A stretch of 64,000 bases of DNA from an uncultured Bacteroidales bacterium (GTDB lineage: Bacteria; Bacteroidota; Bacteroidia; Bacteroidales; UBA932): contig CALVAC010000001.1 in NCBI GenBank assembly GCA_944325435.1, positions 62,001-126,000 on the forward strand, given 5' to 3'. Numbering within the stretch: the first letter of the stretch is position 1; each line of letters starts with the position of its first letter. The notes beneath the pieces were generated by a model. The model was not told the DNA's origin. It did not search any database and was given only the letters and a program-made list of their open reading frames with translations. Below are positions 28,239-42,744 of the stretch, one piece after another. The position numbers and the translations under genes are program-made.

Positions 28239-28928
28239 CTATTCGACCGGACTGAAACAATAGCCGTATCCGGAACGGTTGGTAAGGTAATTCTTATAGG
28301 GGCCGAGCTTGCCCCTTATCCTTGCGATATGGACATCCACTGTCCTGTCAAGCACATACGGGGCATCTTTCCACAACTCATTGATAATGTCCTCCCTGGA
28401 ATAGACCCTGCCCTCATGAGATGCAAGCAGATATAGAATCTCAAACTCTTTTTTGGAAAGAAGCACAGGGTTGTCAGCTGCATACACCATTTTTTTCGAC
28501 ATATCTATCCTGATCTTGCCTGAAACGATATTGTCTTCCGGATGTTCCGCAGACATGCCGCCCGACCTTCTCAGGACGGCCTTCACCCTCGCAATTACCT
28601 CGTGTATGGAGAATGGCTTGCTGATATAGTCATCCCCTCCTGCGGAAAACCCTGTCAGGAGGTCATTCTCAGCGTTCTTTGCAGTAAGAAAAATGATAGG
28701 TATCCGACTGCCCCTTTCCTTGCGGACAACTTCCGCCATCTTGAACCCGGACATTCCCTCCATCATGACATCGAGAAGGATAAGGCTGTGCTCGGGAGAA
28801 AGTTTATCGAGAGCCTCCTCGGCAGACGAGGCACAGTCCACATCATAGCCGGCGTTCTCAAGGTTAAACTGCAGGATTTCACAAATGTCGGCTTCATCAT
28901 CGACAATCAGAATCTTACCTTTCTCCAT
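28239..28928 (-). CDS. OmpR/PhoB-family response regulator
   Basis: A 229-residue regulator. The receiver domain has the acidic pair in LIVDDEAD, phospho-acceptor Asp53 (LILLDVMMEG) and the lysine in SKPFSIHEV. The C-terminal winged helix (VYSREDIINELW, RTVDVHIARIRGKLG) binds DNA. It is the partner of the kinase 9 bases downstream. I chose ATG 28928 because it starts MEKGKILIVDD; a longer frame lies upstream. An inverted repeat and a TACCTTTG promoter box lie within 55 bases upstream. Confidence 0.93.
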   Translation of the reverse strand: MEKGKILIVDDEADICEILQFNLENAGYDVDCASSAEEALDKLSPEHSLILLDVMMEGMSGFKMAEVVRKERGSRIPIIFLTAKNAENDLLTGFSAGGDDYISKPFSIHEVIARVKAVLRRSGGMSAEHPEDNIVSGKIRIDMSKKMVYAADNPVLLSKKEFEILYLLASHEGRVYSREDIINELWKDAPYVLDRTVDVHIARIRGKLGPYKNYLTNRSGYGYCFSPVE

Positions 28929-28941
28929 ATATGAAAATTTA

Positions 28942-28970
28942 GACGGTCCGCCCTCGCGGGGCAAACCGTC
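28942..28970 (-). promoter_or_regulatory. Inverted repeat at the predicted start of the response-regulator message
   Basis: GACGGT (28942-28947) pairs with ACCGTC (28965-28970), and inside it GCCC (28950-28953) pairs with GGGC (28959-28962) around a 5-base loop, with a 2x2 internal mismatch. It begins next to the predicted transcription start and ends 13 bases before the start codon. It may be a leader hairpin or a DNA operator for autoregulation. Confidence 0.5.
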
Positions 28971-28971
28971 A

Positions 28972-28979
28972 CAAAGGTA
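28972..28979 (-). promoter_or_regulatory. TACCTTTG -7 box for the two-component operon
   Basis: Exact TAnnTTTG match on the minus strand 43 bases before the response-regulator start. A TTG (29003-29005) lies 23 bases upstream, slightly beyond the usual spacing. Confidence 0.45.
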
Positions 28980-29064
28980 TTTATTTTAGACTAATCTTTA
29001 TGCAACAATCCTGTAAAGTTTTTGTTACATGCCGCAGGGAAGTCCCCGCGCAGCCGCATAAAGG

Positions 29065-30948
29065 CTATTCCCCGAATCCCTCCGGAACCTTGGAGAATAT
29101 GGCGTGTATCCTGTCCATGTCGAACTTGGATGTGCGGTCGTAGAAATAGACCCCGTTCTCCTCCTGCTCGACATCCGTCAGCTGGGTATAGCAATAGCCG
29201 CACACCTGGTCCGAGAGCGAGAGCATGGCATCCACCTGTCCTTCGAGACGGGCATAGAATTCTTCCAGCGACCTCGGAGCCTGGCCGTATCCCCATGATT
29301 CCGTCTGCGAATTCATCGCCTGACGGTCCTGGTCCTTCACCCACTTGATTCCTCCGAACTCATCCACCAGATATGGCATCTTCCCATCGTAGTGCATCCA
29401 GGCGTATCCGGTATCAGGGGCGAGATCGTTGAACCCGATATTCCTCACAGTCCCCTTATATGTCTGAGGCATGAGGGAATAGAGTTCGCCGTCATTGTAT
29501 ATGATATCCTTGAGTTTCGCCGGATCCTGCTCGTAGTGATGCACCGTCCAGATGTCCGTATGGGCCGTCAGTACGCCTCCGCTGCAGACATTCACCGGCC
29601 TGGTAGGGTCGAGCTGTTTCGTAAGGGAATAGAGGTCTTCCGTGAAACGCGGATACTGGACATCATCCGGCCAGAACTCCTCGTTCATCGGAGTCCATAC
29701 AATAAGGGAAGGGTGATTCCTGTCCCTGACGACGCACTCCTCCCATTCAGCAAGGAAATTGCGGGCTGCCAGAGGATTGTTCGCATCCATTCCCCAACTT
29801 GCGGCTTCTCCCCATGTCAGATAGCCGAGCCTGTCGGCCCAGTAATAATATCTTTCTTCAAATACCTTCTGATGCAGCCTCGCACCGTTGAAGCCGGCCT
29901 GCATGGACAGTTCGATGTCATGCCTGAGGGCCTCATCCGAAGGGGCGGTCCAGATGCCATCAGGATAGAAGCCCTGGTCGAGGACAAGTCTCTGGTAATA
30001 CGGCCTGTTGTTGAGGAATATCCTGTTGCCCTCTATGTGCACCTTCCTCATGCCGGTATATGAACTGATACTGTCGACCACATTTCCGTCTGCATCCAGC
30101 ACCTCATAGACAAGCCCGTAAAGGAACGGATCCTCCGGACTCCATGTCCTCATCTTCCTGACAGGGATGACGATGACGCTGCTGTTGGATGCGGCCGCTG
30201 TCTTTTCAGCCACTGTCTTCTCCCCTTCCTTCAGGGTGACTTTCAGCCTGTACCCGGCCACCTCGGACCAGAACCACGGACGCACCACGACCTGTTTCTG
30301 GTCAATGTCAGTCATCACCTGCACATTCTGCAGTGCGGCCTCTGCCACCGGCTCCATCCATACGGTCTGCCAGATACCGGTGGTCCTGGTATAGTTGCAG
30401 GCATGCGAAGCATACTGGAGAGACTGTTTTCCCGCACCCTGCAGACCGCTGCGGATATCGCTGGATGCCTTGACCACAAGGTCATGTTCAGCCCCATCGG
30501 ACACGTACCGGGTAATGTCATACGAAAACGAAGAACTGCCGCCGAAATGTCTTCCGACAAACTGTCCGTCTATGTACACTTCCGAAGTATAGTAAACCGC
30601 CCCGAAATTGAGTCTCACGTTCCTGCCGGCCCACTCCTGAGGCATCCGGATCGTCCGGTGGTACCAGATGTTGCTTATATAGTCCTTGTATCCGACTCCG
30701 GAGAGTTCGCTTTCCGGCGCGAACGGCACGATGATGCTGCCATCGAATCCTTCAGAAGCATGCAGGCCTCTCTGGAATCCGGTACCGGCGAAATCGAACG
30801 TATATGTCCACTCTCCGTTAAGGTTAACCCAGTCTGCACGTTCGAACTGAGGACGCGGATACTCCGCCCTCGGCAGATCTCCGGCCTCCGCCGTCAACCC
30901 CAGACCGGCAAGGGCTGCGATGCAAATCATCAATAGACTCTTTTTCAT
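29065..30948 (-). CDS. Glycoside hydrolase family 2 enzyme, exported
   Basis: A 627-residue protein with a Sec signal (MKKSLLMICIAALAGLGLTAEAG). It has a jellyroll sugar-binding domain (about 35-190), an immunoglobulin-like domain (about 200-295) and a TIM-barrel catalytic domain with the acid/base Glu in WTPMNEEFW and a likely nucleophile Glu in LVDEFGG. These fit GH2 (beta-galactosidase, beta-glucuronidase, beta-mannosidase). Specificity cannot be fixed. It is a single-gene unit divergent from the TIM-barrel lipoprotein gene and carries no SusC/SusD partner. Confidence 0.9.
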   Translation of the reverse strand: MKKSLLMICIAALAGLGLTAEAGDLPRAEYPRPQFERADWVNLNGEWTYTFDFAGTGFQRGLHASEGFDGSIIVPFAPESELSGVGYKDYISNIWYHRTIRMPQEWAGRNVRLNFGAVYYTSEVYIDGQFVGRHFGGSSSFSYDITRYVSDGAEHDLVVKASSDIRSGLQGAGKQSLQYASHACNYTRTTGIWQTVWMEPVAEAALQNVQVMTDIDQKQVVVRPWFWSEVAGYRLKVTLKEGEKTVAEKTAAASNSSVIVIPVRKMRTWSPEDPFLYGLVYEVLDADGNVVDSISSYTGMRKVHIEGNRIFLNNRPYYQRLVLDQGFYPDGIWTAPSDEALRHDIELSMQAGFNGARLHQKVFEERYYYWADRLGYLTWGEAASWGMDANNPLAARNFLAEWEECVVRDRNHPSLIVWTPMNEEFWPDDVQYPRFTEDLYSLTKQLDPTRPVNVCSGGVLTAHTDIWTVHHYEQDPAKLKDIIYNDGELYSLMPQTYKGTVRNIGFNDLAPDTGYAWMHYDGKMPYLVDEFGGIKWVKDQDRQAMNSQTESWGYGQAPRSLEEFYARLEGQVDAMLSLSDQVCGYCYTQLTDVEQEENGVYFYDRTSKFDMDRIHAIFSKVPEGFGE

Positions 30949-30980
30949 AAAAATCAAGGATTATGTTTTACAAATCGTAA

Positions 30981-30988
30981 CAAAGATA
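30981..30988 (-). promoter_or_regulatory. TATCTTTG -7 box for the GH2 gene
   Basis: Exact TAnnTTTG match on the minus strand 32 bases before the GH2 start; no clear -33 element. It is back to back with the divergent box at 31002-31009. Confidence 0.48.
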
Positions 30989-31001
30989 CGCAGATTATTC
31001 G

Positions 31002-31056: not shown

Positions 31057-31986
31057 ATGAAAAAGTTTTTCAGATTCAACCACAAGGCTCTGGCAGCATT
31101 CGCCTTTGCCGCAGCAGCTGTGCTGACCATCAATTCTTGCGGACAGGCACAGGAAAAGAAAACAATCGGAATACAGCTCTATTCCGTCATGGATGCAGTA
31201 AAGGCTGACCCGCAAAGCAGCATCGAGAGGCTCACTGGAATGGGCTACAATGCATTCGAACTTGTACAGTGGGGAGGAGACCCTAAGGTGTTCGGACTTC
31301 CTGCAGAAGAATTCAAGGCCATCTGCGATGCTAACGGAGCAAAGATAATCTCGACCCATTCCAGCATCCAGGAAGACCCGGCCAACGAGGCGGAAATCAT
31401 GCAGCGCTGGCGTCAGCTTTTCGAGATACAGAAGTCCTGCGGAGGCAGCTATTTCGTAATCCCGAGCTACAAGGCAGAATACACCGAGGCCGGCATCAAG
31501 CAGATGGCCGACTATTTCAACAAGGTCGGAAAAATTGCCTCGGAATACGGGCTCAAGCTCGGATACCACAACCATTCAGGGGAATTCCAGACTCTCAAGG
31601 ACAGCGACAAGGTGATGTGGGAATATCTGGTGGAAAACACCGACCCGCAATATGTATGCTATGAACTGGATGTGTACTGGTGTACAAAGGGCGGCAAGGA
31701 TCCTGTGGAATACCTCAAGAAATATCCAAACCGCATCGAACTGCTCCACATCAAGGATGATTTCGTGATCGGAGAAAGCGGCACCATCAATTTCGAAGCC
31801 ATATTCAACCAGTTCTACGCCAACGGAATGAAGGACTACGTGGTCGAAATCGAGACTCCGGGCTGGCTCCGCGAGAAAAAGAATGCCGACGGTTCAGCCT
31901 ACACCAAAGACCAGATTTCAGAAGAGATGTTCCAGGCTGCAGCCGAAAGTGCAGAATACCTCCGGAATGCGCCGTTCGTGAAATAG
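31057..31986 (+). CDS. Exported sugar isomerase/epimerase-like TIM-barrel lipoprotein
   Basis: A 309-residue protein of the xylose-isomerase-like/AP endonuclease 2 fold: IGIQLYSVMDAVKADP, STHSSIQEDP, GYHNHSGEF and LLHIKDDF contain metal-binding His/Glu/Asp positions typical of sugar phosphate isomerase/epimerase proteins. The N-terminus is a lipoprotein signal with the lipobox cysteine in INSCGQ, so it acts outside the cytoplasm. Related exported proteins occur with Gfo/Idh/MocA oxidoreductases in 3-keto-sugar pathways, and four such oxidoreductases are in this window. That link is inference. Confidence 0.87.
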   Translation: MKKFFRFNHKALAAFAFAAAAVLTINSCGQAQEKKTIGIQLYSVMDAVKADPQSSIERLTGMGYNAFELVQWGGDPKVFGLPAEEFKAICDANGAKIISTHSSIQEDPANEAEIMQRWRQLFEIQKSCGGSYFVIPSYKAEYTEAGIKQMADYFNKVGKIASEYGLKLGYHNHSGEFQTLKDSDKVMWEYLVENTDPQYVCYELDVYWCTKGGKDPVEYLKKYPNRIELLHIKDDFVIGESGTINFEAIFNQFYANGMKDYVVEIETPGWLREKKNADGSAYTKDQISEEMFQAAAESAEYLRNAPFVK

Positions 31987-32046: not shown

Positions 32047-32460
32047 TTATTCCACGTCGTCATCATCCAGTCCAGGGATATTCTGCGCCTGCTGATCAAT
32101 GTCTATCCAGTCATAATTTGCGCCTCGATAGACATCTATGGAACATGATCTCTTGTAAGATATATCGTTAGGCTCCACCTTGATGGTCAGCGTCCGGTAT
32201 CCATCCTCATAATCCGATGCCGTGACTGTCACCCAACCGAACAGTTCCTCCCTGTAATAATAACTGGAATTGGAATAAGAGACAGAAAAACCGGAAAAGC
32301 CTGTCTCTGCCTGCACCGTGACCTCCCCGCCTCCGCTGCCGAAATATAGAACTGACTGCGTGAATATACCGTCATCCCTGACATACAGATAATCATCATC
32401 CCTGCATCCGGCAATCAGGACGGATGCAACTGCAAGAACAAACAGATTAATCTTTTCCAT
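32047..32460 (-). CDS. BACON-like lipoprotein, B type, copy 1
   Basis: A 137-residue lipoprotein (MEKINLFVLAVASVLIAGCRDDD, lipobox Cys near 19). The body is one beta-rich BACON-like domain: VLYFGSGGGEVTVQAETGFSGF, GWVTVTASD, LTIKVEPND, CSIDVYRG and a closing IDIDQQAQ. It ends in an acidic tail (LDDDDVE). The start follows the A-type gene with the junction TGATATG. Most of it is nearly identical to copy 2 at 32924-33352. It may bind glycans or, as a partner of the nearby C10 peptidase, act as inhibitor or anchor; neither is shown. Confidence 0.78.
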   Translation of the reverse strand: MEKINLFVLAVASVLIAGCRDDDYLYVRDDGIFTQSVLYFGSGGGEVTVQAETGFSGFSVSYSNSSYYYREELFGWVTVTASDYEDGYRTLTIKVEPNDISYKRSCSIDVYRGANYDWIDIDQQAQNIPGLDDDDVE

Positions 32461-32461
32461 A

Positions 32462-32842
32462 TCAATCGGCATATTGGGTTATATATACCCTTGTCGCGAT
32501 ATCAAACGCATCAAGACGCATTCTGCACTTCCGTATGGAACCCGAGGTGTTCTCTTCTGCCCGTATCGTAACCGATTTCCAGAATCCCAGTTCCGTCACA
32601 TCCTCGCTGGACACGTTGATCCAGTTGTCTGCCGTCATATCAGACCCTCCCGGACTCTCATAAGAATATATCATATCTGATATCCAGAAGGAATCCTGTG
32701 CATATATTGTACATTCTCCTCCGGAAGCAGGAAATGCCACCCTGTCCGCCGACACTTCCAGCACTCCTCCTCCTTTCTTGCACCCTGCGGCAAGTGACGC
32801 CAGCGCCAGCATCAGCACGGCATATTTCATTACCTTTGCCAT
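32462..32842 (-). CDS. BACON-like lipoprotein, A type, copy 1
   Basis: A 126-residue lipoprotein (MAKVMKYAVLMLALASLAAGCKKGGG, lipobox cysteine about residue 21). The mature part reads like a single BACON domain: LEVSADRVAFPASGGECTIYAQ, WINVSSEDVTELGFWKSVTIRAEEN, CRMRL and a closing VYITQYAD. The first 40 codons and last few codons are almost the same as in copy 2 (33354-33743), but the core (32483-32717) is quite different. A 155-base stretch of this core is repeated almost exactly at 35221-35375. It follows the peptidase remnant with TGATATG. Confidence 0.78.
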   Translation of the reverse strand: MAKVMKYAVLMLALASLAAGCKKGGGVLEVSADRVAFPASGGECTIYAQDSFWISDMIYSYESPGGSDMTADNWINVSSEDVTELGFWKSVTIRAEENTSGSIRKCRMRLDAFDIATRVYITQYAD

Positions 32843-32843
32843 A

Positions 32844-32978
32844 TCAATCGTATGTTATCATCCTGAACTGCCAAGAATAATTCCATGATTTAACATCAGC
32901 GCCAGAATCAACCGGATCTGTATCTACTCTCGCTCGTGTATCGAAGACTCCACAGTCATAATACCCATCTCCTGCGCC
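32844..32978 (-). pseudogene. Duplicated 3' end of the C10 peptidase gene
   Basis: About 135 bases essentially identical to 33745-33879, the last 45 codons of the peptidase (from GDGYYDCGVF to the stop). The sequence stays in the peptidase frame to its own TGA at 32844-32846, but no peptidase precedes it. It was carried along by the tandem duplication. Its 5' part also encodes, in a different frame, the tail of the B-type copy 2 gene. Confidence 0.85.
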
Positions 32979-33352
32979 TGCTGATCAATGCCTATCCAGT
33001 CATAATTTGCGCCTCGATAGACATCTATGGAACATGATCTCATGTAAGATATATCGTTAGGCTCCACCTTGACAGTCAGTGACCTGTAATATCCATCCTC
33101 ATAATCCGATGCCGTGACTGTCACCCAACCGTAACGGAACAGTTCCTCTCTGGAATAAGAACTGGAATAAGAGACGGAAAAACCGGAAAAGCCTGTCTCC
33201 GCCTGCACCGTGACCTCCCCGCCTCCGCTGCCGAAATTTAGAACTGACTGCATGAATATACCGTCATCCCTGACATACAGATAATCATCATCCCTGCATC
33301 CGGCAATCAGGACGGATGCAACTGCAAGAACAAACAGATTGACCTTTTCCAT
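32924..33352 (-). CDS. BACON-like lipoprotein, B type, copy 2, with altered C-terminus
   Basis: A 142-residue lipoprotein almost identical to copy 1 through IGIDQQAQ (lipobox cysteine in IAGCRDDD). After the duplication junction at 32972-32978 it reads duplicated peptidase DNA in another frame, giving the tail EMGIMTVESSIHERE instead of the acidic tail of copy 1. Small in-frame changes separate the two copies elsewhere (SYSSSYSREELFRYG versus SYSNSSYYYREELFG). The ATG at 33352 follows the A-gene stop as TGATATG. Confidence 0.76.
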   Translation of the reverse strand: MEKVNLFVLAVASVLIAGCRDDDYLYVRDDGIFMQSVLNFGSGGGEVTVQAETGFSGFSVSYSSSYSREELFRYGWVTVTASDYEDGYYRSLTVKVEPNDISYMRSCSIDVYRGANYDWIGIDQQAQEMGIMTVESSIHERE

Positions 33353-33353
33353 A

Positions 33354-33743
33354 TCAATCGGCATATTGGATTATCCAGAGATAGCCGTATAAAATAGCCC
33401 CATCGCTAAACGATACGCGGCATTTCCTGTCGATACCATCCGCATTCTCGCTGACCTCCACTGTCATGGAACGCAAATCACTCTTTCCCTCATCCACTTC
33501 CCTGATATGCAGCCAATCAGATGTCTGGAACTCCGCTGACGACAATTCTTCATCTGTATAATACATGGATATGGAATTTATATTGAACGTCCTTTCATAC
33601 GAATACACTACCTTGAACCCTCCGGAAGCAGGAAACAGCAAGACATTCTCCGACACTTCCAGCACCCCTCCTCCTTTCTTGCACCCTGCGGCAAGTGATG
33701 CCAGCGTCAGCATCAGCACGGCATATTTCATTACCTTTGCCAT
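33354..33743 (-). CDS. BACON-like lipoprotein, A type, copy 2
   Basis: A 129-residue lipoprotein with the same signal peptide and first strand as copy 1 (AGCKKGGGVLEVSENVLLFPASGG) and the same ending (IIQYAD), but an unrelated-looking core (33375-33617: FKVVYSYERTFNINSISMYYTDEELSSAEF, WLHIREVDEGKSDLRSMTVEV). The predicted fold is still BACON-like (WLHI, MTVEVSEN, CRVSF strands). It begins one base after the peptidase stop (TGATATG), so it is translationally coupled to the C10 peptidase and is a candidate dedicated partner. Confidence 0.78.
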   Translation of the reverse strand: MAKVMKYAVLMLTLASLAAGCKKGGGVLEVSENVLLFPASGGFKVVYSYERTFNINSISMYYTDEELSSAEFQTSDWLHIREVDEGKSDLRSMTVEVSENADGIDRKCRVSFSDGAILYGYLWIIQYAD

Positions 33744-33744
33744 A

Positions 33745-35130
33745 TCAATCGTATGTTATCATCCTGAACTGCCAAGAATAATTCCATGATTTAACATCAG
33801 CGCCAGAATCAACCGGATCTGTATCTACTCTCGCTCGTGTATCGAAGACTCCACAGTCATAATACCCATCTCCTGCGCCGTGCCAGCCCCAATTGACATG
33901 GAACATATTGTCATGCTCAACCCCATCATCATCGACATATCCTACATAGTAACCATCAAGTACCCATGCATGACCTTGATGATGATCCCGCGTCCCACCC
34001 AGAAATACCGGACGGCCTACCTTTAACTGTGCAATAGCTTTCTCCTGATTGCATTTTCCAAACCCGCAATGCAGTTTCACATTGCTGTAGCCGTAATTCT
34101 TCAATGTACGTCTGGCATTCTTCGGATAAGCCCCTGATGATTGGCCATAATCTGTATTGATATTTTCTTTCTTACCCAATTCATATATGAAATTTGCCGC
34201 CTGTGCTTTCGCAGCTTCTACCCCTCCATCCACATCATCCCACCGGCAGACCGATTCCAAAGCATCCCAGCTACATGCCATGCCATTAAATATCATAGTA
34301 TTTGAATGTCTATAAGATACCATTATCTGACCTGTTGCAATAGCTACACATCCTGCTGCAATATTATTATTTTCTTTTTCATCATCATTTTCATTAAGCA
34401 AGTCATTGAATGGACTTTCCTGATGCCATTTTGTCATAAGATATGGTCCCCAGACATTTTGTGGAGGACCAGCCACAGGCACATCTGCCACCTCCTGCAC
34501 CGGCAGTATCTGCATAGTCGGATCAAAAATGTCAATTTCATCAAGAAGTCTGTACACAATCATATCGGATATCACATCCGGTATATCATCTTCATCGGAC
34601 ACAGCAGACTTTATATATAGCGTATCTTCATCTGCTTCAGCATCCGACATTGTCCTGTCTTCCGGATCCGCCTGCTGATACCAGCGAGGCGCAGTTGTAG
34701 AATCAGCAACATGAGCAGGGGGAGAAATCCCCATCGTTTTCATGCTGCCTTTTTCCGTTATACAGAATATCTTCTCTTCGAAAAGAGTATTGGCAGAAAT
34801 TACCGCGAACCCGTTCTCTCCCTCGAAATTGACAATATATACCAAGGGGCCATCAATGTCGACACCGGAGGATTTTGTCGATGGCCCTAACAGGTCTTCA
34901 CCATCTACACTCATAACATCGGAAATGTCATAAGACTTTGTCGTGGTCCTGGTGAAAGAGCCATAGAGTTCATCGATACGGTTATCCAATGTAGCAAGGG
35001 CACTTTCCACCGGAATGGTCTCTATTTTTCTCGGGATTCCAGATAAGGCATCCGTCGACATAACAGTTTTGCTGCAGCCTGTCATTATAACCAGACAGCA
35101 CACTGCAATACGAATAACAATATTTTTCAT
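33745..35130 (-). CDS. C10 (streptopain/SpeB-like) cysteine peptidase lipoprotein
   Basis: A 461-residue secreted peptidase precursor. It has a lipoprotein signal (CCLVIMTGCS, Cys19), a long propeptide with the Spi-like GFAVISANT strand near residue 107, the oxyanion Gln in MTKWHQESPFND, catalytic Cys261 in AAGCVAIATGQIM, and His387 in GHAWVLDGYY, followed by NWGWHG. The family includes SpeB and the Bacteroides Bfp proteases. The gene is visibly more A+T-rich than its neighbours (for example 34350-34420), suggesting transfer. Two lipoprotein genes follow directly; in Bacteroides fragilis, C10 peptidases are encoded with small inhibitor-like proteins. Confidence 0.9.
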   Translation of the reverse strand: MKNIVIRIAVCCLVIMTGCSKTVMSTDALSGIPRKIETIPVESALATLDNRIDELYGSFTRTTTKSYDISDVMSVDGEDLLGPSTKSSGVDIDGPLVYIVNFEGENGFAVISANTLFEEKIFCITEKGSMKTMGISPPAHVADSTTAPRWYQQADPEDRTMSDAEADEDTLYIKSAVSDEDDIPDVISDMIVYRLLDEIDIFDPTMQILPVQEVADVPVAGPPQNVWGPYLMTKWHQESPFNDLLNENDDEKENNNIAAGCVAIATGQIMVSYRHSNTMIFNGMACSWDALESVCRWDDVDGGVEAAKAQAANFIYELGKKENINTDYGQSSGAYPKNARRTLKNYGYSNVKLHCGFGKCNQEKAIAQLKVGRPVFLGGTRDHHQGHAWVLDGYYVGYVDDDGVEHDNMFHVNWGWHGAGDGYYDCGVFDTRARVDTDPVDSGADVKSWNYSWQFRMITYD

Positions 35131-35220: not shown

Positions 35221-35375
35221 CTTGTCGCGATATCAAACGCATCAAGACGCATTCTGCACTTCCGTATGGAACCCGAGGTGTTCTCTTCTGCCCGTATCGT
35301 AACCGATTTCCAGAATCCCAGTTCCGTCACATCCTCGCTGGACACGCTGATCCAGTTGTCTGCCGTCATATCAGA
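35221..35375 (-). pseudogene. Isolated copy of the A-type core (no start, no signal peptide)
   Basis: These 155 bases match 32490-32644 with one difference (T to C, changing WINV to WISV). The matched part lies entirely inside the variable core of A copy 1 and lacks the conserved flanks found in both intact genes. It keeps an open frame but has no start or signal sequence. It lies between the peptidase gene and the GlpT-like gene, and its right end overlaps the latter's stop codon. Confidence 0.85.
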
Positions 35376-36777
35376 TGTCTTTGCGCTGCATCTTCTTCCA
35401 GAAGAGGACAGGGAGAAGGAATGCAATCAGGGCTGCGATGAGCCAGAAGATGGAGACAGGGCCGAAATCGTAGGTGGTTGCGGCAAGTATCTCGGTCTCT
35501 GTGAGACCCTCCGTAATCTGTGGCGCAACGGAGAAACCCTCAATCAGATATCCGCTTGTAATGTCCTGGAGACCGGCTGCCACATAGCTTGAAATACCCA
35601 CCACACCGAGAGCCGCGCCTGTAGCCTTTCTCGGCACGATATCGACAGCCATCAGGCCGGCCACGATACAATAGAGCACCCCTATGAAAAGGCTGAACAG
35701 GGAGACATAGACCACATTGACGATATAGCTTCCATTGGTGAAAAGGAAGAATGCGAGGGAAATGAAGCCGAAAATCCCGGAAATGATTGCCGGCTTGACC
35801 CTGTCACCCTTGAAAAGGGTATCGGAGAACCAGCCGGCGATGACAGTGCCGACCACCCCGAAAGCAGCCGAGAATGCGATTATCTGCGTCGCATCCTCCA
35901 GGGAATATCCCTTGGCTTTCTGAAGGAACAGGACACCCCACCCTGCGACTGCATATTTCGTGATGTAGACGAATGCGCTGGAGGCCGCGATAATCCATAT
36001 CCCGGGATGGGAAAGGACCATCTTCTGCAGCTTCACGGTCGGCATCGAATCCTCGTTTCTCGGAGCCTCCCCGGAAATCTCCTGAATGGATGGAAGCCCT
36101 TTGCTCTCAGGGGTGTCCGACACGAATATCAGGATGACGGCAGAGCCGATCAGTCCGGCGACTGCGGCAAAGATAAAGCCGTACTGCCATCCGAGAGCTC
36201 CCACGACTGCCCCCACTATGATAAATGCAAGGAACTCTCCGATATACGGGGTCGAGCTGAAAATGCTGTAATAGGTGCCCCTCTTCGAGAGCGGGAACCA
36301 TCTGGACAACTGGATGACTCCCGGAGGGGACCCCATGGACTGCGCCCAGCCGTTGATGCCCCACACTACTGCAAATATAAAGAATATCAGCAGCGACACC
36401 AGACCGACAGTACCTTCCAGAAGGCCGGTGACACCCATAATAAGGTTGATAAGCGAGGAAACGAGCAGGCCTGTCGCCATGAACCGCCTTATATTGCAGT
36501 AATCCGCAATGAATCCGTTGGTGAACTTGCCTGCCGCATAGACAAAAAGGAAAGCGGAGCCGACAAGACCCAGCTGGCCGGGTGTCATGACTCCGCTGTC
36601 GATTATCGGCTGCTTGACTACGCTCAGGCTCATACGGCAGACATAATACATGCTGTATGCCGCCACCATGGCCCAGAATGTTTTGTTTCGCAATGTCTTA
36701 TACCTTGACTGCACCTGCTCCTGAGGCACCTTGTCCGCTGACGGCTTGCTTATCCTGTAGAACGAATATAGGCTCAT
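35371..36777 (-). CDS. GlpT/UhpT-like organophosphate:phosphate antiporter (MFS)
   Basis: A 468-residue inner-membrane transporter with 12 predicted helices. The motifs (YSMYYVCRMSLSVVKQPIIDSG, GWAQSMGSPPGVIQLSRWFP, KYAVAGWGVLFLQKAKGYS) fit the organophosphate:phosphate antiporter family (glycerol-3-phosphate or hexose-phosphate uptake). The substrate is unknown. The ATG at 36777 agrees with a promoter box just upstream; a longer frame starts inside that promoter. Its stop codon (35371-35373) lies within the copied A-core fragment, so the last codons may have been altered by that event. Confidence 0.86.
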   Translation of the reverse strand: MSLYSFYRISKPSADKVPQEQVQSRYKTLRNKTFWAMVAAYSMYYVCRMSLSVVKQPIIDSGVMTPGQLGLVGSAFLFVYAAGKFTNGFIADYCNIRRFMATGLLVSSLINLIMGVTGLLEGTVGLVSLLIFFIFAVVWGINGWAQSMGSPPGVIQLSRWFPLSKRGTYYSIFSSTPYIGEFLAFIIVGAVVGALGWQYGFIFAAVAGLIGSAVILIFVSDTPESKGLPSIQEISGEAPRNEDSMPTVKLQKMVLSHPGIWIIAASSAFVYITKYAVAGWGVLFLQKAKGYSLEDATQIIAFSAAFGVVGTVIAGWFSDTLFKGDRVKPAIISGIFGFISLAFFLFTNGSYIVNVVYVSLFSLFIGVLYCIVAGLMAVDIVPRKATGAALGVVGISSYVAAGLQDITSGYLIEGFSVAPQITEGLTETEILAATTYDFGPVSIFWLIAALIAFLLPVLFWKKMQRKDI

Positions 36778-36801
36778 GACTGTTCCGGTGAACTTGGACG
36801 G

Positions 36802-36809
36802 CAAAGGTA
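36802..36809 (-). promoter_or_regulatory. TACCTTTG -7 box for the GlpT-like gene
   Basis: Exact TAnnTTTG match on the minus strand, 24 bases before the ATG at 36777. It suggests this transporter has its own transcription start after the long susC operon ends at 36836. Confidence 0.45.
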
Positions 36810-36835
36810 TAAAAGTTCAGCGAAATATCATAATC

Positions 36836-38179
36836 CTATACGCGTGGCTCCCAGCCTTTCTCATATTTGCGGCTCCACAGTCCCCTGATCTCCGGATCCT
36901 TGTCGAGAATGTATCCCGAAACAGGGTCTATCTCAATGGAATGCCCAACTCTCTGGGCAATATTGCCGTACTGTACGAGCTGCGTGGAGATGCAGGCATC
37001 CACAAGGCTTGAATTGAGCCGTGTCCCTTTCCTTATGGCATCAAACCAGTTGCGGAAATGGAACACATCCAGGGCCTCGGAAGGATTCAGCAGGTTACCT
37101 GTCTCGAACTTGAGGTCGCTCTTTACTTCCTTGACGGTCTTGCCTTTCATGTCCGCTATCCTGTAGTCGTTGCCGCCTGTCAGATAGAGAGAGCCTGTCT
37201 CCCCATAGAATACAACCCCGAGCGGCTGGCCATCCACAGGAAGAGAGTTGCAGCTGCGGCCTTCCCATGAGAAAGATGCCCTGTCCCCGAACTGACAGGT
37301 TATGAGCTGGGTGTCCGGAGTCTCCCAGTCATCATTGTACCGGTAGCGTCCACCGATGGAATCCACCTTTGTGGGATAGCTCACATCAAGCCCCCACCGG
37401 AGCAGGTCCACGAAATGCGTACCGTTGTTAAGAGCCTCTCCTGTACCCCAGTGCCAGAACCAGTGCCAGTTGTAATGCACGATGTTGTCCCTGTATTCCC
37501 GTCTGGGGGCAGGCCCCTGCCAGAGATCCCAGTCCAGCCACTCCGGTACCGGCACTGCCTTGCCGGTACCTATCGAAGGCCTGTTGTTCACATACCACGA
37601 CTTCGCATAATGTACCTTGCCGACAGCCCCTGCCTTGAGTTCATCGATAGCCGCTATCACATTGGGCCACGACCGTCTCTGGTTTCCTACCTGGACTACA
37701 GTGCCGTATTTCGCCACTGCCCTGACAAGCATGTCGTTCTCTGCCGGATTATGGCTTGTCGGTTTCTCGAGATATACATGCTTGCCGGCCTGCATCGCCA
37801 TAATGGCTGCCGGAGCATGCCAATGGTCAGGCATCGCTATTACGACGGCATCGACATCCGGGGATTCCAACAGATTGCGGATATCCTTCTCTCCCGCAGG
37901 GGTCTTTCCGGTAATCTGCCGCACCGTTGCCTGGCATTTCGCTATTGCCCGGCTGTCCACATCGCATATCCTGGTAATCTCACAGTCCTTCAGTTTCGAA
38001 AGGCCGGAAGCAAGGCCTTTGCCACGTGAATTGACCCCGATCATACCTATCCTTATCCTGTCATTGGCTCCGTTGACCCTGCCTGCAGAATCGAATGCCA
38101 GAGAACTGAAAGTGTTGCCCAAAGTGAAAGCGGCCGCCCCTGAAACGGCACGCTTCAAAAAACTGCGTCTTGATACCAT
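36836..38179 (-). CDS. Gfo/Idh/MocA oxidoreductase with Tat signal
   Basis: A 447-residue NAD(P)-dependent oxidoreductase. The N-terminus (MVSRRSFLKRAVSGAAAFTLG) is a twin-arginine signal, so it is exported folded with its cofactor. The Rossmann motif is IGMIGVNSRGKG, followed by VIAMPDHWHAPAA and the active-site LEKPTSHN containing the EKP lysine. The C-terminal domain holds GGRYRYNDDWETPDTQ. Members oxidise or reduce sugar derivatives; substrate unknown. It ends the long operon and is 44 bases after the next Gfo gene. Confidence 0.88.
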   Translation of the reverse strand: MVSRRSFLKRAVSGAAAFTLGNTFSSLAFDSAGRVNGANDRIRIGMIGVNSRGKGLASGLSKLKDCEITRICDVDSRAIAKCQATVRQITGKTPAGEKDIRNLLESPDVDAVVIAMPDHWHAPAAIMAMQAGKHVYLEKPTSHNPAENDMLVRAVAKYGTVVQVGNQRRSWPNVIAAIDELKAGAVGKVHYAKSWYVNNRPSIGTGKAVPVPEWLDWDLWQGPAPRREYRDNIVHYNWHWFWHWGTGEALNNGTHFVDLLRWGLDVSYPTKVDSIGGRYRYNDDWETPDTQLITCQFGDRASFSWEGRSCNSLPVDGQPLGVVFYGETGSLYLTGGNDYRIADMKGKTVKEVKSDLKFETGNLLNPSEALDVFHFRNWFDAIRKGTRLNSSLVDACISTQLVQYGNIAQRVGHSIEIDPVSGYILDKDPEIRGLWSRKYEKGWEPRV

Positions 38180-38223
38180 GATTATAAAGCTTTATAAACT
38201 GTTTTTACCCTGTTTATGCTGTC

Positions 38224-39549
38224 TCAGAATTTCATATATGGAATCCTGTATTCTTCCGGGAAAATGACCGTCCTGCCCTCCTCCATGGCCTGGTTGGCAA
38301 GCAGGCAGAGCAGAGTAGCGCAATAGGCCTCCTCGACCACATCCCTGGCCTTCTCTCCAGTGATGCAGGCCTGGCAGAAAGAGGAAAGTATGACATCGGA
38401 TCCATCCTTGTCAACCCCTACGGTGCTCTGCCCGGGATTCACATATACCCTTCCCTCCACAATGCTGTGCGGAGGATATTCTTTCTTCGTCTCGGACCGC
38501 CAGCTCGGCCCGGCGGCAGGAATGGCCTCGAACGCCTTTTCCTTTATCTGTGCAAGCAGCTGCTGTATCCCGGACAGAGAATTGTCATTCTCAAGATAAT
38601 AAAGGCCCTTGGTCAGATCCATTGTTCCGGAATTGCCGAGAATCTGATCCTCCATTCCATTGAACCGATTGGAAATAAGTGACTCGTAATTAATCTTGAC
38701 CCCATCGGAATACCGGTAGATGACATTGACGCTGTCATAGACTTCGCGTCCATCCTTCCAGTAGACGATATCACCCATTCCTGCCACGCTCAGGGGCATA
38801 CGCCCGACAGCCCAGTTGCATACTTCAAGCTGGTGGGAGGCCAGTTCCGTCATGAGTCCTCCGGAACTTTCCCTGTAAAGGCGCCAGTTGATTCTCCTCT
38901 CCAGTTCGGGCGATGGGACCGGACGGCGCCAGTCGGCATTGCGGAACCAGTGGCATCTCATCCCTACCACATCCCCTATCAGTCCATTGTGGACAAGCTG
39001 CATCCCTTTGATATACTTTTCGTCATACATCCGCTGCATACAGAAATACAGCACCCTGTCAGAATGTGTGTACGCCTGATATATCGCCTTGCACTCATCC
39101 ATTGTCCTTGCCATCGCCTTCTCGCAGAACACATGTTTTCCGGCAGAGAGTCCATCCAGAACCATTCTGGCATGCCAGTTCAGCGGTGTCGCAATGACCA
39201 CTCCATCTATGTCATCCTCCTCGAGAAGCTTACGGTAGTCTGCATATCTCCTGGCGGCCGGGACAAGGGCTGAAGCCGCATCCAGATTTGGAGCGTAGTC
39301 ATCGCACAGCGCCACTATCCTTGCATGAGGTATCTGCAGAAGATTGTGGATATGGTACTGCCCTCTGGAGCCTGTCCCGATGACGGCAATCCTCGCCTGC
39401 CCTCCACGTATCTCAGACAGTTTCTCCTGAGTACACGAGACAAGCCACGGAGCCATAGACAGGATTGCGGTGCCTCCTGCAATATATCCGAGACTCTTTA
39501 TGAATCTTCTGAGACTCAAGTCTGTTCCGGGTTCATTTTCACTCTTCAT
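38224..39549 (-). CDS. Gfo/Idh/MocA oxidoreductase, exported lipoprotein-like
   Basis: A 441-residue oxidoreductase with a Tat-type N-terminus (SLRRFIKSLGYIAGG) ending in LVSCTQE, a lipobox-like cysteine, so it is probably a Tat-exported lipoprotein. Rossmann motif IAVIGTGSRGQYH, then VIATPLNWHARM and FCEKAMART with the catalytic-lysine region. It recalls GH109-type NAD-dependent glycosidases (GSRGQYHIHNL), but the key residues cannot be checked without an alignment. It lies 3 bases after the ApbE gene. Confidence 0.86.
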   Translation of the reverse strand: MKSENEPGTDLSLRRFIKSLGYIAGGTAILSMAPWLVSCTQEKLSEIRGGQARIAVIGTGSRGQYHIHNLLQIPHARIVALCDDYAPNLDAASALVPAARRYADYRKLLEEDDIDGVVIATPLNWHARMVLDGLSAGKHVFCEKAMARTMDECKAIYQAYTHSDRVLYFCMQRMYDEKYIKGMQLVHNGLIGDVVGMRCHWFRNADWRRPVPSPELERRINWRLYRESSGGLMTELASHQLEVCNWAVGRMPLSVAGMGDIVYWKDGREVYDSVNVIYRYSDGVKINYESLISNRFNGMEDQILGNSGTMDLTKGLYYLENDNSLSGIQQLLAQIKEKAFEAIPAAGPSWRSETKKEYPPHSIVEGRVYVNPGQSTVGVDKDGSDVILSSFCQACITGEKARDVVEEAYCATLLCLLANQAMEEGRTVIFPEEYRIPYMKF

Positions 39550-39552
39550 ATC

Positions 39553-40356
39553 CTACAGTTCATATATGTTAGCTTCAACATCTGCGGACAGTTCCGCTAT
39601 CTGCCTCCTCTGCTCCGGAGAGGCTATCATCCATACAGTGCTGAGCACCTCTGCATCCAGAGAGTCACCTGCAACGACAGTAGCAGCCATTTTCCTCCTG
39701 TTGGCAACACCTGTCAGCGGATTGACTATATGTCCGCTATAAGACGGTGTGTTGCCGGATGTGGAAAGGGAACTGTCATACAGCCTGAAGTCACGCAGCC
39801 TCACTCCCGTCTCCGGACTGTCGAACCCCACCTTCCAGCAGTCCCCGTATGGATGATGCCCCATCCCGATTATTGAACTGCCGCCGAAATCCACAAAGGC
39901 ATTCTTCACACCGTTTGCCGCAAGAAGCCTGCGCACCGACCTCAACGCATAGCCTTTCGCAAATCCTCCGAAATCCAGCCTTACCATCGGATTGCGGAAA
40001 ATGACTTTTCCTGCGCCGACAGTGACATCCCGAAAATGTCCGAGAGTGACATCAAACAGATGCAATGTCCTTTCATAATAGTCACCGCACAGCCGGAGGG
40101 CATCCTCCATGACCGGACTTATGTCCACAATATCCCGGCTGCGAGAATTCAGCCTCGAAACTTCACTGTCAGGAGCGAACCTGTCGAAAACACGATCCAT
40201 GGATTCAAGCAGACCGGCCACATCCCGCCAGAGCCTTGACAGCATCTCGATATCGGGATGCACCATCAATACTTCCAGCCTCGTCCCCATCACCCGGGAC
40301 ACGGCCCCGTGAAACAGGGATTCATCCTCATGCCAGTCTGTTCTGTCCTCTATCAC
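39553..40356 (-). CDS. ApbE-like FAD:protein FMN transferase without signal peptide
   Basis: A 267-residue ApbE-family protein. Typical members attach FMN to threonine residues of target proteins, usually in the periplasm. Motifs present are VMGTRLEV, RLNS, LDFGGFAKGYALR (metal and flavin binding), HIVNPLTG (normally HIIDPxTG) and DSLDAEVLST. Most ApbE proteins are lipoproteins; this one has no signal, and its apparent start is a GTG at 40356 that overlaps the preceding stop (GTGA). No FMN-binding partner is nearby in this operon, so its job here is unclear. Confidence 0.85.
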   Translation of the reverse strand: MIEDRTDWHEDESLFHGAVSRVMGTRLEVLMVHPDIEMLSRLWRDVAGLLESMDRVFDRFAPDSEVSRLNSRSRDIVDISPVMEDALRLCGDYYERTLHLFDVTLGHFRDVTVGAGKVIFRNPMVRLDFGGFAKGYALRSVRRLLAANGVKNAFVDFGGSSIIGMGHHPYGDCWKVGFDSPETGVRLRDFRLYDSSLSTSGNTPSYSGHIVNPLTGVANRRKMAATVVAGDSLDAEVLSTVWMIASPEQRRQIAELSADVEANIYEL

Positions 40357-41714
40357 TCCACAGTCGTATTTCCCGCCATCGCGACTCCTTCAGTCGTAAT
40401 GTAATACTTCGACAATGTATTCTTCACTTCCTGCTCCGGAACCTTGCCCTTGCCTGCGTAATGCAGGAAATCGGCTGCCACTTCCGCAAAATGTTCCTCA
40501 TGTCCCGTTCTGTTTTCTTCAGGGATATCTATCAGGTAAACGCCATCATCCACCGGCACGACAGAAACGAAAGCATACTTCTTCAAAGCCCTTTCAAGCC
40601 TCTTTTCAAAATCGGAATCATCAATATCCGAGGTCTTGCGGACATAAAGCTGCCTCGTGAATCCCGTTCCGGCATCCTGGACGGTCTCTATAGATGACAG
40701 GGTCCCTTTCTTGACGGATACGGATATGTCACCGCCTCCCTCAGAAGCGAAGTCCCATCGCACGGTAATCCTCGCATTGACCCCTTTCATGCGGAAATCT
40801 ATCGTCCCGTTTGCCATGACTTCCAGTATTCCGTCCCGGATACAGCCATCGAGATAGTCCGGAAAGGCGGCAAGACCGGTGGACATCTTGTATTCCTCAA
40901 GAGAGACAGGAGTCGGCCAGTGGCTTGCGCCAGTCACCCTGACATCTTTTTCATAATCGATGGCATCTTCCGGAAAGCACTGCCACTGTATCTGGTCTAC
41001 AAGATGCGTGGTGACATCCGCAATGCCTTCCCCCTGCTGTCTCACATCATAATACCATCCCGGACGCATTGATGGCTTGCCGGAAACATTCTTGTAAAAA
41101 TAATGTACGCTTTCCATAGTCACCGCCGGTTCATCCGGCGTACCATGGCACAGCTCTCCGAAAACATCATGCCGGGAAAGCAGATATCTCTCCACCATAT
41201 TGATTACATCATGCCTTTCCGTCATAAGCTCATATATGACGGTCCCGTTGCTCCGGGCAAGCGCGTATGCCGACACAAGCAGGCCGAAATCCTCCCTCGA
41301 GATTGCCAGCGGCTTGTCTGCAAGCACATCATATCCGGCCTTGACAGCCTCGTAGATATACCTCGTCTTCTTCATGTTGTTGCCGGAAATCACGACAATG
41401 TCCCCTCTGCGGTCCGCAACCATCCTCTGCAGGTAATCCTTCCCGATATAAGGGACAGTAACCCATGATGTCGGCGACTTTTCACGGGTGTTGTATGATC
41501 TGATGGCCGACAGATACTGTTCCACCTCATTCCCCGGCGGAGCATAGACATAGACGGTATCATCTATCCCCGGGACGTCCGACTTCTGAAGCAAACTTGC
41601 GTGGAAATGCCCTGGATCAAGTACCACCAGTCTGTAACCTGCCACCTCGCCGCCGGAACACGACACCGCCAGAGAAAGGGCAATCCCGGACACGATATTT
41701 CCGCAAAGCCGCAT
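40353..41714 (-). CDS. Divergent Gfo/Idh/MocA-type lipoprotein oxidoreductase
   Basis: A 453-residue exported protein with a lipoprotein signal (MRLCGNIVSGIALSLAVSCSGG, cysteine near residue 19). The Rossmann-like start is unusual (YRLVVLDPGHFHASLL instead of GxGxxG), then IVVISGNNMKKT and LADKPLAIS, and a distinct C-terminal domain. I recall this subgroup annotated as putative oxidoreductase C-terminal domain proteins in Bacteroidetes. Cofactor use is uncertain given the changed motif. It overlaps the ApbE start by 4 bases and starts 4 bases after the previous gene. Confidence 0.8.
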   Translation of the reverse strand: MRLCGNIVSGIALSLAVSCSGGEVAGYRLVVLDPGHFHASLLQKSDVPGIDDTVYVYAPPGNEVEQYLSAIRSYNTREKSPTSWVTVPYIGKDYLQRMVADRRGDIVVISGNNMKKTRYIYEAVKAGYDVLADKPLAISREDFGLLVSAYALARSNGTVIYELMTERHDVINMVERYLLSRHDVFGELCHGTPDEPAVTMESVHYFYKNVSGKPSMRPGWYYDVRQQGEGIADVTTHLVDQIQWQCFPEDAIDYEKDVRVTGASHWPTPVSLEEYKMSTGLAAFPDYLDGCIRDGILEVMANGTIDFRMKGVNARITVRWDFASEGGGDISVSVKKGTLSSIETVQDAGTGFTRQLYVRKTSDIDDSDFEKRLERALKKYAFVSVVPVDDGVYLIDIPEENRTGHEEHFAEVAADFLHYAGKGKVPEQEVKNTLSKYYITTEGVAMAGNTTVE

Positions 41715-41718
41715 CAAA

Positions 41719-42732
41719 TTACCGTCTGCCATATTTCCTCATCAGTTTTTTCGCATCCTTGAGACCTGCCTTATATGCCTCTGCCAGTTTCACTGTCCGT
41801 CCGCCGTCCGACTTGCTCATGTTGGCCGCCTTCATGAATGTGAATATCTCTATCGTCTCAGCCGCCGGGACAGGGGATATGCCTGTCCTGAAAAACTGCA
41901 GAATCTCCTTGAGGAGCTCACTGTAACCTTCATATCCGCCGGCCGGGATTGTCTTGCCGGAAACCATGACAGTACCGCCATAGACCTGCGGTCCCTTGAC
42001 TATCGCCCTGAAAGACCCGAGCCTGCCATCATTCCATCGTCCGGTCACGATGTCACCCCATTCCGAGGAAATCCTGTTAACTTCCTCGCATCCGGTACCC
42101 ATAATGGTATAAAGGGTTTCCACACCGTGTATCCCGTAGAATCCGAAATCAGGATGAGTAGGCTCGACCTTGTGTGGAGACCAGCAGTCGGCACCGAGAA
42201 CCTTCCCGAATTCCCCATCATGCAGCTGCCTGTTACGCGGTGTAAACCGGAGTGTCGATGATGAGAATATCGGCACTCCGTATCTTTCAGCCATCTCGCA
42301 GATGGCTATGGCCTCTCCGAGAGTGGCTCCGAGCGGCTTGTCTATATAGCATGTCTTTCCGGACCTGAATACCTCGACGGCCTGATCGAGATGCAGCCTG
42401 CCATCATTGGTCTCGATGAATACGCAGTCTACCTTGTCAAGAAGGTCCTGTATGGAGCCGACAATCTCCACTCCCATGGAAGACACATCCTCGACATATC
42501 CGGGAATCCGGCTGTAGCTAGACTCTATCGTACGGGAACCATAAGGATAGGCGGCAACAACCCTGAAGCCTTCCGCCCATTCTTCCTTTCCCCCGTTGAT
42601 AAGGCTGGTGAAAGCGACAGAATGCGAAGTATCCAGACCGATGATACCGAGCCGGATCACATCCTGTGCAAAAGCTCCGGCACCGCACAGCATCAATGCT
42701 GCAAGAAGTGAAATGATTTTTCCGATTCTCAT
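41719..42732 (-). CDS. Gfo/Idh/MocA oxidoreductase with Sec signal
   Basis: A 337-residue oxidoreductase with a Sec-type signal peptide (MRIGKIISLLAALMLCGAGAFAQ). The Rossmann start IRLGIIGLDTSHSVAF lacks the usual last glycine, and the catalytic region reads YIDKPLGATL. The mature protein is shorter than its two larger neighbours. As the first of the four oxidoreductase genes it follows nagB by 12 bases. Periplasmic sugar or inositol derivative is the likely substrate class; nothing more can be said from sequence. Confidence 0.84.
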   Translation of the reverse strand: MRIGKIISLLAALMLCGAGAFAQDVIRLGIIGLDTSHSVAFTSLINGGKEEWAEGFRVVAAYPYGSRTIESSYSRIPGYVEDVSSMGVEIVGSIQDLLDKVDCVFIETNDGRLHLDQAVEVFRSGKTCYIDKPLGATLGEAIAICEMAERYGVPIFSSSTLRFTPRNRQLHDGEFGKVLGADCWSPHKVEPTHPDFGFYGIHGVETLYTIMGTGCEEVNRISSEWGDIVTGRWNDGRLGSFRAIVKGPQVYGGTVMVSGKTIPAGGYEGYSELLKEILQFFRTGISPVPAAETIEIFTFMKAANMSKSDGGRTVKLAEAYKAGLKDAKKLMRKYGRR

Positions 42733-42744
42733 GATATTTCCTTT

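Follow-up and report, generated by a model that had tools for sequence, protein, structure and literature searches.

A gene cluster on the reverse strand of the 64,000-nucleotide stretch of Bacteroidales DNA analysed here (the window) is probably a C10 protease-inhibitor locus that evolves in the manner of a toxin-immunity array, and in which the core domain of one inhibitor gene was exchanged by recombination (Table 1). Read along that strand, the order is an MFS transporter gene, the stump of a core-1 gene, the protease gene, A2, B2, a copy of the 3′ tail of the protease gene, A1 and B1. The genes of the cluster lie 1 nt apart or overlap, the ORFs of A1 and A2 are both intact and encode lipoproteins, and a lipobox is present in both the A and the B proteins.

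Table 1. Features in and around the C10 protease cluster, with positions numbered from the first letter of the window
Feature	Position	Strand	Description
MFS transporter gene	35371..36804	(-)	Upstream of cluster; gene end unlike that of sister species, with a core-1 fragment abutting the stop codon
Truncated third core-1 copy	35221..35375	(-)	Corresponds to ~A1 codons 66-117; 154/155 nt identical to 32490-32644
C10 cysteine protease (SpeB/interpain-like)	33745..35130	(-)	Lipoprotein signal, Spi-like prodomain, catalytic Cys and His
A2, BACON-like lipoprotein, 129 aa	33354..33743	(-)	1 nt past protease stop codon; bears core 2
Core 2, exchanged domain of A2, codons 32-122	33378..33650	(-)	
B2, second BACON-like lipoprotein	32924..33364	(-)	Start overlaps the end of A2
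Orphaned copy of protease gene 3′ end	32844..32978	(-)	0/133 differences; joined to B2 at CTGCGCC
A1, lipoprotein, 126 aa	32462..32842	(-)	Signal peptide and end like those of A2, but with core 1
Core 1, exchanged domain of A1, codons 32-119	32486..32749	(-)	
B1, second copy of B	32047..32472	(-)	dS 0.09 to B2; in-frame codon indels in loops
TIM-barrel isomerase-type gene	31057..31986	(+)	Convergent; borders the cluster

The cluster contains two tandem copies of a unit of ~890-901 bp, each made up of the protease-gene 3′ tail, A and B. The unit begins within the protease gene, and the joint lies at CTGCGCC, a string common to the end of B and the protease gene. A preliminary description of this DNA had taken A1 and A2 for products of a tandem duplication; the extent of the unit was drawn too narrowly there, in that it also takes in gene B and ~135-145 nt of the protease gene. 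The tail, the copy of which is mostly non-coding, does not differ between the units (0/133 nt), codons 1-31 of A differ at 3/93 nt (dS 0.08) and the last 21 nt of A at 1/21, and exact repeats shared by the units reach at most 172 nt. Because B1 and B2 differ more than the tail does (18/389 nt, Fisher p 0.01, in addition to in-frame indels in loops; dS 0.09), one simple duplication giving identical copies is, on these counts, insufficient and leaves part of the pattern unexplained. The last ~15 codons of B2 (32924-32978) consist of the copied protease tail read in a different frame, giving this protein a new C terminus (EMGIMTVESSIHERE).

Between nearly identical ends, the middles of A1 and A2 differ strongly, as the preliminary description had noticed. 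Across codons 32-119, the codon alignment has mismatches at 148/261 nt (Fisher p 8e-23 relative to codons 1-31), amino-acid identity is 25-28% compared with 96.8% in the 5′ flank, and dS is 1.30 compared with 0.08-0.09 in the flanks, a 15-fold jump. A core this divergent is incompatible with the flank rate, again in line with the earlier account. Because synonymous sites jump, and because the tail copy is mostly non-coding besides, selection at the protein level cannot yield the step between flank and core; the same two observations contradict purifying selection as the source of the flank similarity, the alternative that had been set against exchange. On the sequence evidence, the core difference between A1 and A2 is the product of recombination.

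The exchanged region comprises nearly the whole folded domain, leaving constant the signal peptide, the lipobox, the residues adjoining it and the last residues of the protein. Its 5′ border is at about codon 32 (32749 in A1, 33650 in A2), and its 3′ border lies just before CATATTGG, where it is constrained because it overlaps the start of gene B. The motif CTCCGGAAGCAGGAAA (codons 37-42, FPASGG), formerly proposed as an outer crossover border, falls inside the exchanged region: codons 32-36 already differ at 10/15 nt, the motif itself at 1/18 and codons 43-119 at 137/228. Perhaps this island represents a second crossover patch.

Tree-based comparison assigns the core and the flank of A1 to different relatives. 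The A1 core is 43% identical to the A gene of G377, another species of the same genus, and 25% identical to A2, whereas the 5′ flank of A1 is 97% identical to A2 and 39% identical to the G377 gene, a pattern that argues for recombination. A core tree of 11 sequences (~88 residues) joins A1 with the G377 A gene (UFBoot 97), and a forced grouping of A1 with A2 is rejected for the core (AU p 0.025). Given the ~88 residues on which it is based, this incongruence gives moderate rather than overwhelming support, and it agrees with the synonymous-site jump. The proposal that the core was exchanged with a different donor is thus borne out by the rejected grouping, by the dS step and by a truncated third copy of core 1, overlooked in the earlier account, which lies 2.7 kb away from A1 and differs from its core by one base.

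The 5′ end of this third copy reads TGATATG, that is, the MFS stop codon followed by T and ATG. The same stop-T-ATG string is found at the protease/A2 joint and, in G377, at the joint between the MFS and A genes. The simplest reading would be that a core-1 A gene formerly resided right behind the MFS gene, as it does in G377, and that its 5′ part was deleted between the 7-nt repeats. Core 1 of A1 could plausibly have come from an intact earlier form of the third copy; the stump as it now stands lacks codons 32-65 and is too short for this role. An in-frame fusion of the stump with the MFS gene was considered and dropped, since the frames differ. The tail of the MFS gene in G377 (RNVTSE-stop) resembles that of the protease (RMITYD-stop) at ~22/29 nt by eye, a hint that it may be the scar of a deleted protease tail.

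The protease, the single C10 gene in the genome, matches Peptidase_C10 (PF01640) at 1.4e-28 (100.9 bits, gathering score 26), the Spi-like prodomain family (PF13734) at 1.3e-5 (26.0 bits, cut-off 25) and streptopain in the PDB at 7.5e-9. Its catalytic Cys and His motifs, AAGCVAIATGQ and QGHAWVLDG, match GC..A and GHAW and align with those of 13 other C10 proteins. No C10 genes were found in 14 control genomes.

Against the BACON family (PF13004), A1, A2, B1 and B2 score 17.0, 12.1, 21.3 and 17.2 bits, respectively, all under the gathering score of 25, which is passed by some relatives (36.3 at locus L073). The AlphaFold2 model of A1 exceeds a pLDDT of 90 across most of the domain, and among solved structures it best matches that of the BoGH5A BACON domain (3zmr; Z 9.9, 83 residues, rmsd 2.8), followed by 2mw1 from B. 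thetaiotaomicron (Z 9.7), a 'Lipocalin-like protein' in the PDB sequence table. A1 is predicted from this model to have the BACON Ig-like fold; the model of A2 is poor (pLDDT 65). The Foldseek rows under the top ones are mostly antibody-like Ig domains, which indicate merely 'Ig-like', and staphostatins are not among the structure matches listed, a circumstance of no weight either way. The more familiar setting of BACON domains is in glycoside hydrolases, as accessory modules. Stand-alone BACON-like lipoproteins distant from C10 genes also occur (L073, L077 and L079); at L077 and L079, the lipoprotein gene adjoins a putative GTP-cyclohydrolase-like gene (named from sequence).

The slot behind the protease is occupied in a consistent manner across the genus. 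Among 400 congeneric genomes searched, 20 carry C10 genes, at 22 loci with this one counted. A gene for a lipoprotein of 122-146 aa lies no more than 30 nt from the protease end, or overlaps it, at 16 of the 22 loci, and at two others a lipoprotein gene is found 209-255 nt from the protease. At the G345 locus (L037, reverse strand; a genome with 9% contamination), the slot holds a lipoprotein serpin gene (Pfam 3.4e-76), ~7 nt past the C10 gene. Within a set of 14 pairs, protease and slot-protein distances correlate (Mantel r 0.51, p 2e-4, shared species history still being included in this value), and the slot protein is the more diverged partner in 90 of 91 comparisons. Co-transcribed pairs of C10 proteases and inhibitor-like proteins, some of them lipoproteins, are known from B. 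fragilis and B. thetaiotaomicron (PMC2873492, PMC3462683). Because of the genomic slot, the serpin found in it and the protease-deletion scars described below, A and B are most likely protease inhibitors rather than variable surface proteins, and the earlier assignment to surface or specificity proteins gives way to this one.

In several relatives, the protease has been lost and the inhibitor spared. By comparison with G104, where the pair is intact, G047 and G082 retain the beginning of the protease signal peptide, joined in frame to that of the inhibitor. By comparison with G296, G211 has kept the promoter region and ~nine protease codons ahead of the inhibitor. In G377, which is without the protease, the A gene lies 1 nt behind the MFS gene. 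No C10 match at 1e-20 was found in G047, G082, G211 or G377, an absence that is provisional because these MAGs are 82-95% complete. These genomes thus appear to retain genes of the protective type without the effector, which is the mark of an orphan array. Orphan inhibitors could also be products of neutral decay, because the A gene of G197 is truncated. In that genome (L008), a 5′-truncated A-like ORF is followed by an intact BACON lipoprotein gene, with no protease, and the two are possibly a decaying orphan pair. G052 (L096, L104) has tandem related BACON-like lipoproteins, with no protease in view.

The inhibitor of G104 is 99.4% identical to those of G047 and G082, whereas the DNA behind it is 65-87% identical (L074, L075, L076, L100, L101, L103), and inhibitor genes therefore also pass between species. 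In G104, the protease-inhibitor pair is flanked by repeats of ~62 nt, which could serve as recombination anchors.

The nearest relative found, G313, is without the cluster, its MFS and isomerase genes lying ~65 nt apart. Its DNA (L061/L098/L099) is generally ~84% identical to the window, rising to 98-100% at ~28873-31000 and over much of 36242-42744, and is 80-91% identical between these blocks, where the cluster sits. The 36242-42744 block contains shorter, less-identical stretches near 38750-39000 and 40250-41250. The 98-100% stretches reflect recent exchange between this lineage and that of G313, interrupted by the cluster block; because identity drops across the cluster, the history of that block differs from that of the recently shared flanks. 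Cluster DNA was absent from the 190 relatives searched. The comparison of relatives' cores that the preliminary description had called for was run between species, and no other genome searched carries the locus. No relatives of A1 were found in IMG/VR, and a GTDB scan with A4 matched the G377 locus alone.

Several other explanations bear on the same observations. It is highly improbable that the copies diverged in place after duplication, with no exchange and with the core under strong diversifying selection: the loop indels and amino-acid changes between B1 and B2 show that such selection may act, but the core is almost saturated at synonymous sites (dS 1.30) beside flanks at 0.08-0.09 and a tail at 0/133, and the A1 core groups with the gene of another species. 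An assembly artefact, by which the cores of two strains were joined in one contig or cores were misassigned across the 172-nt exact repeat, is quite unlikely, even though the genome is a 44-contig assembly and the repeat exceeds common assembly k-mers. With ~7 nt shared, the junction between B2 and the protease tail offers too little sequence for a k-mer misjoin; the units are told apart by many differences, codon indels among them; and the 155-nt stump, one base off A1, abuts a unique gene. Misassembly could have affected which core comes first, but not that two cores are present. It is also unlikely that A and B are surface-exposed binding or adhesin lipoproteins, with BACON as a glycan- or mucin-binding module and a recognition domain varied by cassette exchange. 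The BACON-like fold, the lipobox in A and B and the position of the exchanged domain behind a constant anchor would suit such a role, as would the start of B, C-R-D-D-D at the lipobox cysteine, which resembles the surface-export signals of other Bacteroidota. Set against this are the location of the slot directly behind the C10 protease at 16 of the 22 loci, the serpin that occupies it in G345, the covariation of slot protein and protease, the lack of any cassette bank past one 155-nt stump and the fact that no recombinase was noticed among the adjoining ORFs. The last two points also tell against ongoing cassette switching, as the preliminary description had envisaged it. Shuffling by a diversity-generating retroelement or an invertase was rejected, as neither was noticed in a reading of the ORFs around the locus.

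A possible variant of the preferred reading is displacement, in which a protease-A2-B2 module arrived and displaced an older protease-A1-B1 module, whose protease tail, A1 and B1 are all that is left. Such an event would account for a protease 3′ tail directly preceding A1 and for B1 and B2 being more diverged than the tail, and it has parallels both in the protease deletions sparing the inhibitor within the genus and in the T6SS immunity arrays of V. cholerae (PMC5361080). However, the identical tail (0/133) and the near-identical codons 1-31 of A imply that the proteases of the two modules were almost identical, and an extra core exchange would still be required. Duplication and displacement predict nearly the same junctions; the greater divergence of B1/B2 than of the tail would slightly favour a second module or extended conversion.

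Similar arrangements can be found among known systems. Like A and B, the 'staphostatin-like' Bfi and Bti proteins of Bacteroides (PMC2873492, PMC3462683) are small exported or lipoprotein beta-rich proteins encoded a few nucleotides from a C10 gene, and several can be present per locus; they measure 116-138 aa next to the C10 gene, comparable to A2 (129 aa) and to A1 (126 aa) behind the protease-tail copy. The present locus differs from theirs in that its four copies belong to two types, a domain has been exchanged and the protease tail has been copied, and its fold is predicted to be BACON/Ig-like, rather than shown to be staphostatin-like. With SpeB-Spi (streptopain and inhibitor I69) it shares a protease of the same Pfam family and a Spi-like prodomain, but neither A nor B matches the Spi family, and both are exported lipoproteins. 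The orphan-immunity arrays of the V. cholerae T6SS likewise contain serial immunity-like genes left after effector loss, effector 3′ remnants and mosaic exchange via recombination (PMC5361080); here, in contrast, there is no T6SS, the partner is a secreted protease and cell-cell antagonism is conjectural. Bacteroidales rAID orphan-immunity islands (PMC12247911) similarly gather fast-evolving orphan protective genes, although no recombinase-associated island is seen at this locus and the putative target is a protease rather than a T6SS effector. In the tps islands of meningococci, for which the collecting of immunity ORFs has been proposed, truncated cassettes beside an intact gene can recombine with it (PMC3848433), but it is the toxin end that is exchanged there and the inhibitor domain here. 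Antigenic variation from silent cassettes involves several silent donors, an expression copy and variants within a population; a single 155-nt stump was found at this locus.

In the preferred reading, A and B would be BACON-fold domains that, once exported and held by a lipid anchor, bind and block the SpeB-like protease of their own cell or of neighbours, with A2, which adjoins the protease, as the presumed cognate inhibitor. Tandem duplication, or loss of a second protease, would have given rise to the copied protease tail followed by A1-B1, and the binding domain in one copy would then have been replaced via recombination with a second inhibitor lineage (core 1), in an exchange that spared the signal peptide and anchor on one side and, on the other, the stretch overlapping B. 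Inhibition, the matching of cores to proteases and this order of events are what we infer from gene arrangement and sequence comparison.

The C10-linked inhibitors of Bacteroides have been treated as self-protection (PMC2873492, PMC3462683). Here, C10 inhibitors are duplicated, domain-exchanged, kept past the loss of the protease and moved between species, which is the behaviour of immunity genes, and this analogy suggests that gut Bacteroidales may trade and stockpile protease inhibitors as other bacteria do toxin-immunity genes. A1 and A2 offer two natural domains on one scaffold, usable for direct tests of specificity. Conceivably, though we advance this only tentatively, operons of C10 proteases and BACON lipoproteins constitute a polymorphic interbacterial weapon-and-immunity system of vesicle- or surface-borne proteases that attack neighbours and of recombining orphan inhibitors kept as immunity, in which domain swaps behind an unchanging lipoprotein signal load new specificities. 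Should foreign proteases prove to be targets of the inhibitors, the secreted enzymes would count among the weapons of gut bacterial competition.
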